Source of the DNA: Zhihengliuella sp.
GTDB lineage: Bacteria > Actinomycetota > Actinomycetes > Actinomycetales > Micrococcaceae
Length of the DNA: 64,000 bases
Assembly: GCF_031178195.1 (NCBI RefSeq)
Contig: NZ_JAPSJL010000002.1
Span: 309,593 to 373,592 of the forward strand
Direction of reading: 5' to 3'
The translations under genes were made by a program, and so were the position numbers. Every line of letters begins with the position of its first letter. Position 1 is the first letter of the stretch. Positions 70 through 4,396 of this stretch are shown here, in pieces. The notes beneath the pieces are model-generated. The model saw nothing but the letters and a program-made list of their open reading frames with translations. It ran no database searches and was not told the DNA's origin.

Positions 70-732
70 ATGCAACGCCTCGATCGTCTCGCCCTCGCCG
101 ACCCCGACACCATCACCGACCTGCGCACCCTGCTGGGCCGGGCCCGGACCGTCCAGGACGGAGAGGTCGCCCTGGTCGCCCGCGGTCAGGCGCTGGCCGT
201 CTACGTGCCCGCGCTCGTGCCGGAGGGACTGGGCAGCGGCACGCCGACGGTCCTCGGCATGCGGGCCTTCCGGCTGGCGGAGTCCGCCGAGGGGACCTGG
301 GTGTTCCCGCTCGGCGCGGTGACCGATCGACTCGCGCGCATGAGCCCGCTCGACACGGTGCTGCAGCTGCCCCCTGCCGAGACCCCTGCCTCCTGGGCCG
401 GTGTCCTGCCCCCCATCGGCAGTTGGGAGGACCTGGGGGAGTACGATGCCGAGGCCCTCCGCGCCGTCGCCGAGTCCGGCATGCGCGCCGTCGCCGAGGC
501 GCTTCCCGCCAATTCGGGCCGCCCGGTGGTCGCCTCGGTGCGCTCCCGCGTCTGGGCGGCACCGTGCGAGCTCAAGCCCGTCCCGGAGTTGCCCGCCGGG
601 GCCGCGTTCGCCGCTCAGACCCTCGGATTCCTGCCGCCGGCCGGACCGGTGAAGGTTCTGCGCAGCGGCCTCTGGCACCGGCTCTCCACGGCGGCCGGGC
701 AGGTGCTGGTCCGCCAGGGCGCCGCGCTCTGA
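70..732 (+). CDS. Conserved actinobacterial protein of unknown function
   Basis: A 220-residue soluble protein with no signal peptide, membrane segment or motif that I recognise. The amino half is rich in small hydrophobic strand-like stretches (LVARGQALAVYVPALVP, residues about 35-51), the carboxyl end reads LWHRLSTAAGQVLVRQG. An ATG at 70 preceded by GGGGTGACAGG fits as start; an upstream ATG at 23 lies in another frame. It is convergent with the OsmC-globin gene downstream. Codon use is normal for the window (G/C at third positions), which supports it being real. I infer no function. Confidence 0.7.
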   Translation: MQRLDRLALADPDTITDLRTLLGRARTVQDGEVALVARGQALAVYVPALVPEGLGSGTPTVLGMRAFRLAESAEGTWVFPLGAVTDRLARMSPLDTVLQLPPAETPASWAGVLPPIGSWEDLGEYDAEALRAVAESGMRAVAEALPANSGRPVVASVRSRVWAAPCELKPVPELPAGAAFAAQTLGFLPPAGPVKVLRSGLWHRLSTAAGQVLVRQGAAL

Positions 733-822: not shown

Positions 823-1734
823 TCAGAGCAGCCGGAGCCCCTGGGAGTGGGGCTGGTCCGGCGTGTTGACCAGGGAGTGCGCGGCCCGCTCGAGGTAGTC
901 CCAGAGGACCTCGTGCTGCAGAGGGGGCAGCTCCAGCGAATCGACGGCCGTACGCATGTGCTCGAGCCACTTGTCGCGCGCCGCGGAATTGACCTTGTAG
1001 GGCATGTGCCGCATGCGCAGACGTGGGTGTCCGCGGTTCTCGGAATAGGTGGTCGGCCCGCCCCAGTACTGCTCCAGGAAGAGCTGCAGCCGCTCGGTCG
1101 CGGGCCCCAGGTCCTCCTCCGGGTACATCGCCCGGAACTCCGGGTCGGCGGCCACTCCCTCGTAGAACTTGGCGGCCAGGCGTCGGAAGGTCTCCTTGCC
1201 GCCCACCTGGGCGTAGAACGTCCCGGCGTACTCGTCGGCTCCGGCCGCGGCGTCGTCCGCTGCGGTCTCCGCGGCGACCGGCTCGTGCTCCACCGGGAAA
1301 TTCACGCTCCGGGCGATGAAGCAGACGCGGTTCGCCTCGGCGTGCAGAGAGTCGGCCAGCTCGCGCTGGCCCTCGTCCGCGAGCACGACGCGGGGCCGCA
1401 GCACCGCCCCTGTGAACTCGCCGCTGCCGTCCCGGTTCAGCCGCAGCGTCCCCGCGGCGTCGTCCGAGTAGCCGGTCACGACCACCTCGTGCTTCACCGC
1501 GATATGGAGGTAGGAGAGCATGTGGCACTGGCTCAGGGCGGCCAGCAGCAGCTGCTCCGGATTCCACCGGTCCTTGTCACCGTGGAAGGTCGGGTCGGCG
1601 GTGCCGGGGAGGTCGGGCAGGCCCGCCGCGCGGACCACGTGGTCCCGTCCGTACGAACGGTAGTCCCTGGTGCCTGCCTCGCGGGCGCCGGTCCATTCGA
1701 GGCTGATCTCGTAGGTGTGCTGGCTCAGATCCAT
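823..1734 (-). CDS. OsmC-family peroxidase domain fused to group II truncated haemoglobin
   Basis: A 303-residue, two-domain protein. Residues about 1-150 are an OsmC/Ohr-like thiol peroxidase domain: the two expected redox cysteines are Cys70 (in LAALSQCHML) and Cys138 (in NRVCFIARSVNFPV). An Ala/Asp-rich linker of about 20 residues leads to a complete truncated haemoglobin of the GlbO (trHbO) class at about 171-293. The globin has the expected haem-pocket residues: Tyr191 (B10), Tyr223 (CD1, in FLEQYWGGP), proximal His243 (F8, in RLRMRHMPY) and Trp256 (G8). The OsmC class reduces organic hydroperoxides and GlbO-type globins bind O2 and handle reactive oxygen or nitrogen species, so one chain may couple haem chemistry and peroxide removal; that coupling is inference. 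The protein should be cytosolic. It lies downstream of pepN on the same strand with a 112-nt gap and probably has its own promoter. Confidence 0.9.
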   Translation of the reverse strand: MDLSQHTYEISLEWTGAREAGTRDYRSYGRDHVVRAAGLPDLPGTADPTFHGDKDRWNPEQLLLAALSQCHMLSYLHIAVKHEVVVTGYSDDAAGTLRLNRDGSGEFTGAVLRPRVVLADEGQRELADSLHAEANRVCFIARSVNFPVEHEPVAAETAADDAAAGADEYAGTFYAQVGGKETFRRLAAKFYEGVAADPEFRAMYPEEDLGPATERLQLFLEQYWGGPTTYSENRGHPRLRMRHMPYKVNSAARDKWLEHMRTAVDSLELPPLQHEVLWDYLERAAHSLVNTPDQPHSQGLRLL

Positions 1735-1846: not shown

Positions 1847-4396
1847 CTACTCGCCGCGGTCGGCGCGCCGTGCCCGCAGCGCCCGGGCCACGGCGTCGCG
1901 GTTCTCGAGCATCAGCCGGCGCAGTGCGGCCGAGTCGTCGTCGAGGCGGCCGAGGAACGCGTCCGTGGCCTCCAGGGTCGATTCGGAGACCTGCGCCGCC
2001 GGGTAGAGGCCCACCACGATCTGCTGGGCGATCTCGTAGCTGCGCTCCTCCCAGACCTTCCCGGCCGAAGCGAAGTACTCGTCGGCGAAACCGGCGATCA
2101 GGGCGGCGTCGTGCACCCGGTTGAAACCGGCGATCGCCTGCCGCTGGTGCGTGTTGGACAGCTCCCGGCCGTGCACGACGGCGTCGAACGCAGTGCGCTT
2201 GGCCTCCGGCGTCGGGACGGCGGCGCGGGCGAGCGCGGCGTTCAGGGCCCCATTTGCGGTGTCGTCCCGCTTCAGCTCGGCGTCGATCTCCGCCGTCCCG
2301 GCGCGGGCGCCGGCGACCAGTGCCGTGAGCAGCTCCCAGCGCAGGTCCGCATCGATCTCGAGACCCGCCAGGGGCGTCTCGCCCGAGAGCAGCGCCGCCA
2401 CGGCGTCGAGCTGGTCGGCCGAACGGGATCGCAGGGCGAAGGCCTTGGCGAGCTGGAGCTGGTGATCGGAGCCGGGGGCGGCCGCGCGCGCCAGCGCCCA
2501 CAGCCGATCCGCAGCCTCGACCGAGGCGGCCGGGGCGTGGTCAGGGTCGAGGTAGTAGTCGAGCACCGTGCCGAGCTGGCGCAGCAGGACCAGGACCACG
2601 GACGAGTCGGATTCCTCGGCGATGTTGTTCAGCACCAGCTCGACGAAGTCGCGTCCGCGGGTCTCCCCGTCGCGGGCCGCGTCCCAGGCGGCACCCCACA
2701 CCAACGTTCGCGGCAGCGACTCGCGGAAATCCTTCAGGTGCCTCAGCGCCGTGGCCTGGGAGACTTCGTCGAGCCGGATCTTGGCGTAGGCCAGGTCGTC
2801 GTCGTTGAGCAGGATGAGATCCGGGCGCCTCCGGCCGACCAGACCGGGCACCGGCGTGGACTCCCCGGCGACGTCCAGCTCCTCGCGGTGCGTCCGCACC
2901 AACTCGCCGTCCACGAGGTCGTAGAAGCCGACGGCGAGGCGGTGGGGGCGGATCGTGGGGTGCTCCGCGGGCGCGGACTGCTCGATCGAGAACGACGCGA
3001 GGACGCCGTCGTCGTCCGTCTCGAGACGGGGGACGAGCTTGTTCACGCCGGCCGTCTCGAGCCAGAGCCGGCTCCACTCAGTCAGCTCGCGCCCGGAGGC
3101 GTCCTCCAGCTCGGTCATCAGATCGGCCAGCTCCGTGTTGCCGAAGGCGTGCTTGCCGAAGTAGGCGCGCACGCCGGCCATGAACTGCTCCTGGCCCACC
3201 CAGGCGACGAGCTGGCGCAGGACCGAGGCTCCCTTGGCGTAGGTGATCCCGTCGAAATTGACCTGCACGTCCTCCAGGTCACGGATCTCCGCGACGATCG
3301 GGTGCGTGGTCGGCAGCTGGTCCTGGCGGTAGGCCCACGACTTCTCCATGGACGCGAAGGTGGTCCAGGAGTGCGTGAACTCGGTGTTCTCGGCCGCAGC
3401 GAGGGTGGACATGAACTCCGCGAAGGACTCGTTGAGCCAGAGGTCGTTCCACCAGCGCATGGTCACCAGGTCGCCGAACCACATGTGCGCCAGCTCGTGC
3501 AGGACCGTGATCGCGCGGCGCTCCACCATGGCGTCGGTGGGCCGGGAGCGGAAGACGTAGTTCTCCAGGAACGTGACGGCCCCGGCGTTCTCCATGGCCC
3601 CGGCGTTGAACTCCGGGACGAACAGCTGGTCGTACTTCGGGAACGGGTACGGCGTGCCGAACTGGGCCTCGAAGAACTCGAAGCCGCGCCGGGTGAGCTC
3701 GAAGATGTTCTCGGCGTCGAGGTGCTCCATGAGCGAGGCGCGGGCGAAGACCCCCAGGGGGATGGTGCGGCCGTCGGAGCTGGTCAGCTCGCTGCGGACT
3801 GCGCGGTAGGGGCCGGCGATCAGCGCTGTCACGTAGGAGGACATGCGCAGCGTGGGCTCGAACCGCCACGTGCTGGCGCCGTCTGCTGCGGCCTCGGGCT
3901 CCGGCGTGGGGGAGTTGGACACCACGTCCCAGTGCGACGGCGCGGTCACGGTGAACTGGAACGTGGCCTTCAGGTCCGGCTGCTCGAAGACGGCGAACAT
4001 GCGCCGGGAGTCCGGGACCTCGAACTGCGTGTAGAGGTAGACCTCGTCGTCGACCGGGTCGACGAAGCGGTGCAGGCCCTCGCCCGTGTTCGTGTAGAGT
4101 CCGTCGGCGACGATCCGCAGCTCGTTCTCCGCGGCGAGGGCGGGCAGCTGAATGCGGACGCCGTCGGAGAGCTCCGCGGGGTCCAGCTCCACGTCGTTGA
4201 GCGTGATCGAGTGGACCGCGTCGGTCACCGCGTCGATGAACGTCGAAGCGCCCTCGCGTGCGGCGAACCGCACCGTGGTGGTGGACCCGAAGACGCGGTC
4301 GCCGCGGGTCAGGTCCAGCTCGACGCTGTACGCGTCGACGGAGACGAGGCCGGCGCGCTCGCGCGCCTCCTCGCGGGTGAGATTCAATCCGGGCAC
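1847..4396 (-). CDS. pepN: Aminopeptidase N (M1 metallopeptidase)
   Basis: An 849-residue zinc aminopeptidase that removes N-terminal residues from peptides in the cytoplasm. The GAMEN substrate-recognition motif is at 266-270 and the zinc site HELAH is at 300-304, followed by Glu323 in LNESFAEF as third ligand (HEXXH-X18-E). The N-terminal beta-saddle domain (about 1-200), the thermolysin-like catalytic domain (about 200-450) and a helical ERAP1-type C-terminal domain (about 520-840) are all present, and the length is normal for the actinobacterial family. The ATG start is preceded by AGGAGG (minus strand, GACCAGGAGGCACCGTG region). It is divergent from the lactonase gene. No signal peptide is visible. 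Confidence 0.96.
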   Translation of the reverse strand: MPGLNLTREEARERAGLVSVDAYSVELDLTRGDRVFGSTTTVRFAAREGASTFIDAVTDAVHSITLNDVELDPAELSDGVRIQLPALAAENELRIVADGLYTNTGEGLHRFVDPVDDEVYLYTQFEVPDSRRMFAVFEQPDLKATFQFTVTAPSHWDVVSNSPTPEPEAAADGASTWRFEPTLRMSSYVTALIAGPYRAVRSELTSSDGRTIPLGVFARASLMEHLDAENIFELTRRGFEFFEAQFGTPYPFPKYDQLFVPEFNAGAMENAGAVTFLENYVFRSRPTDAMVERRAITVLHELAHMWFGDLVTMRWWNDLWLNESFAEFMSTLAAAENTEFTHSWTTFASMEKSWAYRQDQLPTTHPIVAEIRDLEDVQVNFDGITYAKGASVLRQLVAWVGQEQFMAGVRAYFGKHAFGNTELADLMTELEDASGRELTEWSRLWLETAGVNKLVPRLETDDDGVLASFSIEQSAPAEHPTIRPHRLAVGFYDLVDGELVRTHREELDVAGESTPVPGLVGRRRPDLILLNDDDLAYAKIRLDEVSQATALRHLKDFRESLPRTLVWGAAWDAARDGETRGRDFVELVLNNIAEESDSSVVLVLLRQLGTVLDYYLDPDHAPAASVEAADRLWALARAAAPGSDHQLQLAKAFALRSRSADQLDAVAALLSGETPLAGLEIDADLRWELLTALVAGARAGTAEIDAELKRDDTANGALNAALARAAVPTPEAKRTAFDAVVHGRELSNTHQRQAIAGFNRVHDAALIAGFADEYFASAGKVWEERSYEIAQQIVVGLYPAAQVSESTLEATDAFLGRLDDDSAALRRLMLENRDAVARALRARRADRGE

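Follow-up and report, generated by a model that had tools for sequence, protein, structure and literature searches.

An OsmC/Ohr-type thiol peroxidase joined to a group II truncated haemoglobin in Zhihengliuella, and a probable repeated origin of this fusion in Micrococcaceae

The physiological job of bacterial group II truncated haemoglobins is debated, with O2, NO and peroxide all under discussion. Passages of a 2006 census of globins describe two chimeric groups, the flavohaemoglobins and the globin-coupled sensors, both of the 3/3 type, and mention a single 2/2 globin of 260 residues from Streptomyces avermitilis (PMC1457004). In these chimeras, as in the protein described here, the globin shares its chain with a redox or output domain. 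However, according to the same passages their globin is generally an N-terminal 3/3 globin (PMC1457004), whereas in the present protein a C-terminal 2/2 globin follows an N-terminal thiol peroxidase. Among single-domain proteins, GlbO/HbO (PDB 2bmm and 1ngk) have the same fold, proximal His and distal Tyr/Tyr/Trp as this globin, which differs from them in being the C-terminal half of a chain headed by OsmC. Parts of a report on the truncated haemoglobin of R. denitrificans describe peroxidase activity and, as cited there, the same activity in the trHbO proteins of M. tuberculosis and T. fusca (PMC4319818). OsmC/Ohr thiol peroxidases (2d7v, 3eer, 1zb8) share with the N-terminal half the Pfam OsmC domain, both cysteines, the Arg and the Glu, but the nearest solved one is ~30% identical (Foldseek), and the present protein bears a globin. 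Ohr is described, in passages of one source, as acting on fatty acid and organic hydroperoxides and on peroxynitrite, with a conserved Arg and Glu (PMC5962072). In C. glutamicum, Ohr is reduced by the Lpd/SucB (lipoylated-protein) systems, while Trx and Mrx1/MSH were also tried, as sections of another source report (PMC4486171).

Both families are already known; their union in one chain makes a 2/2 haemoglobin chimera that is headed by a thiol peroxidase. No OsmC-truncated haemoglobin fusion was found in the literature searched, which leaves most subscription papers outside; such a fusion may well be recorded elsewhere, and this silence is weak evidence of absence. The fusion would add a chimeric 2/2 globin to the chimeric globins that are known.

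The window, that is, the whole stretch of 64,000 nucleotides of Zhihengliuella DNA that was analysed, carries an intact minus-strand ORF with an ATG start, in which OsmC and GlbO are found in this order on one chain. The features of the locus are as follows.

823..1734, minus strand: fused osmC-glbO ORF, 303 aa plus stop
1279..1734, minus strand: OsmC domain, residues 1-152, Pfam core 52-149, with Arg30, Glu60, Cys70 and Cys138
1231..1278, minus strand: linker of 16 residues (153-168), rich in Ala, Asp and Glu
826..1230, minus strand: group II truncated haemoglobin domain, residues 169-303, Pfam core 172-288, with Tyr191, Tyr204, His243 and Trp256
1847..4396, minus strand: pepN-type M1 aminopeptidase, on the same strand as the fusion and 112 nt upstream of it
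70..732, plus strand: 220-aa ORF, convergent with the fusion, without Pfam match

The original prediction placed a complete OsmC domain, a short acidic linker and a complete GlbO-type haemoglobin on a single 303-residue chain, and all of these points hold: both Pfam profiles score over their cut-offs in the one ORF, the key residues are present, and the linker has the composition listed above. The OsmC profile (PF02566) matches residues 52-149 with 52.7 bits against a cut-off of 27.5 (E 5.9e-14), and the Bac_globin profile matches residues 172-288 with 112.9 bits against a cut-off of 21 (E 1.3e-32). The fusion is the only globin match in the genome, while OsmC matches number two, the second of them on another contig.

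In sequence searches of the PDB, the OsmC part matches 2d7v (VCA0330; E 3.4e-15). The two predicted cysteines, Cys70 and Cys138, align with those of solved relatives. Glu60 lies within an NPEQL stretch that aligns with NPEQL of V. cholerae Ohr (3eer, E 0.002), and Arg30 within a GRD stretch that aligns with GRS of Ohr chain 9jx6, the latter being a weak match (E 0.09). These four residues, like the globin residues discussed below, are invariant in eight aligned fusions from five genus groups. The protein scores 25.7 bits, against a cut-off of 166.15, on the NCBIfam profile of the SACOL1771 peroxiredoxin subfamily (TIGR03563) and so falls outside it.

The globin part belongs to the group II truncated haemoglobins (GlbO) on its profile and its closest solved relatives, since its best PDB sequence matches are the T. 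fusca truncated haemoglobin 2bmm (E 7.2e-53) and M. tuberculosis HbO 1ngk (E 3.4e-40). Foldseek also finds the T. fusca protein, with a TM score on the target of 0.96 and 67% identity, and M. tuberculosis HbO with 55% identity. By alignment to 1ngk, His243 is the proximal His at F8, and Tyr191, Tyr204 and Trp256 are the residues at B10, CD1 and G8. Three of the four pocket residues originally named (Tyr191, His243 and Trp256) are thus found in place, but the fourth was mis-assigned: Tyr223 sits in LEQYWGG, and it is Tyr204 that stands opposite the CD1 tyrosine, Tyr36, of M. tuberculosis HbO (MYPEED vs VYPEDD).

A model of the chain, built as a monomer without haem, has a mean pLDDT of 88.6 and a pTM of 0.56, and both domains are mostly confident. 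The linker is modelled with low confidence (pLDDT 73 at residues 151-160 and 56 at 161-170, below 50 at 159-165), and pLDDT also drops below 50 at 240-243, a stretch made up of the proximal His243 and the residues beside it. Proteins of the OsmC family form intertwined dimers. The OsmC part of the model matches OsmC proteins in Foldseek, with rmsd of 14-16 A to E. coli OsmC chains, and these high values may come from strands swapped between the subunits of such a dimer.

In four sampled genomes of the same genus (G048, which is the nearest relative, G072, G020 and G092) osmC and glbO are separate genes (0/4 fused): they overlap by 4 nt in G048 and by 8 nt in G072, lie within ~0.1 kb of each other in G020, and are ~5.7 kb apart in G092. 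From the His-Glu-Pro codons at the end of the OsmC core to the Phe-Tyr codons at the beginning of the globin there are 68 bases in G048 and 60 in the window, and alignment of the two places an 8-base gap over the overlapping ATGA stop/start. Loss of these 8 bases would bring the osmC and glbO frames together and leave the globin without a start codon of its own; indeed, no in-frame ATG, GTG or TTG is found between codons 148 and 177 of the fused ORF. Third-position GC in the linker (0.90) is close to that of the two domains (0.93 and 0.92). Amino-acid-changing differences are far fewer than silent ones in both domains in comparisons with G048, G072 and G020 (for example, 0.12/0.47 for OsmC and 0.08/0.41 for the globin against G048), a pattern that indicates purifying selection on both.

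The original prediction allowed for a sequencing error joining two genes, which a break in close relatives would reveal. Such a break is present in 4/4 same-genus genomes, but an origin by a one-base error does not agree with a junction 8 nt shorter, with the absence of ATG, or with 31 other fusions. The missing start codon, the shorter junction, the normal codon usage of the linker and the other fusions make a sequencing error unlikely, and the fusion in the window is very probably real.

The 31 other fusions come from a survey of Micrococcaceae, as had been proposed originally. DNA-verified fused ORFs are found in 32 of 295 genomes of the family, spread over seven genus groups, the window's genome included. 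For this count, 291 of the 295 genomes (again with the window's) were re-searched with the M. lylae fusion protein and an alignment of eight fusions, the remaining four being the same-genus relatives judged from their DNA, and the fused counts were taken from DNA alone. All 11 Micrococcus genomes (group g15) and all eight of group g4 are fused, together with 8/9 in g21, 1/1 in g2, 1/1 in g17 and 2/22 in g13. The ninth g21 genome, which is 71% complete, has no match; one g13 genome (G137) is counted among the 32 with only 107 OsmC residues matched in frame. The 263 other family genomes have no stop-free match spanning both domains, their split pairs being only partly checked base by base; these include g1 (the window aside), g5, g12, g22, g23, g25 and other sampled genera. 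In group g3 a globin match is present in 21/24 genomes and an OsmC match in one (G286), 250 kb away, and in g6 the globin is matched in 24/24 genomes, OsmC being limited to three weak rows at other positions.

When the window protein was used as query against the family and the class, the window's genome alone gave one stop-free match across both domains, and the fusion appeared unique to it; this view was refuted by a fused ORF of Micrococcus lylae (L058), in which OsmC and globin share one frame with a linker of ~106 residues. With the window protein as query, a fusion with a long linker is aligned in two separate pieces and so was missed. The g12 genomes and some of g23, taken as fused at one stage, have stops between osmC and glbO in their DNA. 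Loci L070-L073 of Kineosphaera and Propionibacteriaceae, where the match begins before the globin, contain globin only. Beyond the family, no spanning match was seen among the matches listed, either in a class survey of 394 genomes (six of the family) with the window protein, a query that could miss long-linker fusions, or in an order survey of 297 genomes (24 of the family) with a fusion profile, which could miss short-linker fusions and shows the window's own fusion as two pieces. Both surveys scored only some candidates per genome.

The fusions are of two kinds. Those of Micrococcus and its relatives (L131-L155, L160-L168) have the same domains in the same order, and the key residues are invariant in the eight aligned, but their linkers are 47-106 residues long, nearly all with an RLGAP motif, whereas the window linker has 16 residues without RLGAP. 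An RLGAP(I/L)A..(K/R)P-type motif also occurs in the N-terminal extension of stand-alone glbO in g13, and a related SRFG.P.A.L.P in the extension of Arthrobacter glbO; the window linker resembles instead an OsmC tail and a glbO start lacking the motif, as in its genus mates. The short-linker fusion of the window's type is found in one genome only.

A quick tree was built from 97 OsmC plus globin rows (32 fused, 65 split), drawn from the loci at hand rather than from all 295 genomes, after four of 101 rows were dropped (two copies of G-numbered strains and two thinned). By parsimony, the fused state requires three changes. The window protein lies within a set of 27 rows (support 100) whose other members are all split. 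The four genus mates are closest to it, although the branch joining it to these four has a support of 82 only. A tree constrained to keep all 32 fused rows in one group is worse by 44.5 log-likelihood units, with a p-AU of 0.039, a borderline rejection. Because the window's fusion is nested in a split-gene clade and has a different linker, it is probably a second, recent event, separate from the long-linker fusions. The OsmC-GlbO fusion has, on these comparisons, probably arisen at least twice.

The linker motif itself deserves mention. RLGAP(I/L)A..(K/R)P, in many cases with P(S/A).V(S/T)G after it, is conserved in an otherwise variable glbO linker or N-terminal extension (L134 1498-2595, L171 and L040 5302-5883, among others). 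When 183 distinct glbO sequences were scanned with a loose RLGAP pattern, 65 matched; at least one of these matches is false (L055), and M. lylae was missed.

In some relatives the two genes, though split, are neighbours. Of 40 loci, 34 (among them the M. lylae fusion) have osmC first and glbO second on the same strand, within ~2.2 kb or fused; these loci were chosen for their similarity to the query, and almost all come from Micrococcaceae. In genomes of other families with both matches among those listed, osmC and glbO are on different contigs or >0.7 Mb apart (9/9), and since these genomes keep the two genes far from each other, the pairing looks like a Micrococcaceae trait. As in the window, an ORF recognised by eye as pepN-like is directly upstream of osmC in L040, L058 and L060. 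Other genes stand between osmC and glbO in two of these loci: a DNA alkylation repair gene in L040, and epimerase and mechanosensitive channel genes in L060.

Taken together, we consider it probable that the ORF encodes a genuine and recent two-domain protein, in which a short, flexible linker tethers a group II truncated haemoglobin to a two-cysteine thiol peroxidase of the OsmC/Ohr type, and which would combine two defences against linked oxidants. The best reading of the sequence is a peroxide (perhaps also peroxynitrite or NO) defence protein made from joined, cooperating neighbours. Thiol and haem chemistries would then be placed in one enzyme, as was originally proposed. Pairing through the OsmC part would give two thiol sites and two haems per molecule. 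The thiol site would reduce organic hydroperoxides, possibly peroxynitrite, and may be re-reduced by lipoylated proteins or by mycothiol/mycoredoxin. The haem site would destroy H2O2 by peroxidase chemistry or oxidise NO. The benefit of joining would be a fixed 1:1 production and the co-location of two defences against linked oxidants, and electron transfer between the thiol and haem sites is not assumed.

Adjacency and fusion of osmC and glbO in relatives suggest that the two proteins share one job. A broader proposal, that stand-alone GlbO and this OsmC subfamily are a functional pair across much of Micrococcaceae, repeatedly joined into a dual thiol/haem peroxidase, is put forward only tentatively and is rather doubtful. 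Here the haem domain would supply or consume H2O2, NO and O2, the thiol domain would remove the products of these small oxidants, organic hydroperoxides and peroxynitrite, and the two sites could exchange with each other. Counting against a joint function are the presence of GlbO without this osmC across whole genera (g3 and g6), the 20 of 22 g13 genomes without fusion, and the second OsmC protein elsewhere in the window's genome. The conserved order of the two genes could also be an inherited neighbourhood rather than a sign of cooperation, as other genes intervene in some genera. If the functional pair is real, group II truncated haemoglobins gain a defined partner; the repeated fusion to a thiol peroxidase, with the adjacency, would link them to peroxide defence on genomic grounds, and the fused protein would be a compact system for testing their role.

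A serious, though on balance unlikely, alternative to a defence protein of cooperating domains is that loss of the overlapping stop and start fused translationally coupled neighbours by accident, giving two independent proteins on one chain with no added function. The overlap of the genes in two of the four same-genus genomes, the several split genomes that are one in-frame stop, hence one mutation, from fusion, and a window linker that is short, featureless and unlike the long ones elsewhere speak for such an accident; however, the fused state has been kept in 11/11 Micrococcus and 8/8 g4 genomes, and the probable separate origin in the window's genome together with purifying selection on both domains also argues against it. 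It is quite improbable that OsmC acts as a thiol redox partner rather than a peroxidase, passing electrons from thiols through its cysteine pair to ferric haem and so making the globin an NO dioxygenase or O2 scavenger that is self-sufficient. The four catalytic positions of Ohr are all intact, suggesting peroxide chemistry, and we know of no OsmC protein that reduces haem. The fusion and the neighbourhood of the genes would suit such a partnership, as would the reductase domain that flavohaemoglobins carry according to passages of the globin census (PMC1457004); truncated haemoglobins have no such domain. Most improbable of all is a sequencing or assembly error that joined two separate genes, as the state of the four sampled same-genus genomes might suggest, because a simple base-call indel would keep the ATG that is gone here from a shortened junction of normal codon usage, and six further genus groups of Micrococcaceae also contain fused ORFs.

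Some minor observations can be added. In eight split loci (L212, L213, L233, L234, L005, L006, L169 and L217), osmC and glbO share a frame that is interrupted between them by just one stop codon, so that one mutation would fuse them. ORFs resembling by eye the 220-aa ORF of the window follow glbO in L040 (5880-6539, minus strand), L058 and L060 (6716-7387, minus strand), and this ORF may be a conserved neighbour of glbO. Furthermore, the globin of one g3 genome (G241; L124/L127) is matched in two pieces with ~19 unmatched residues between them, after a MYPDF stretch, which points to an insertion within or close to the region of the haem pocket. In three other g3 genomes (L108, L110 and L113 of G279, G257 and G172, respectively), a second globin-like ORF of ~60 codons is found ~0.8 kb from the full glbO; these short ORFs match the last 33 residues of GlbO and are possibly a duplicated gene end.
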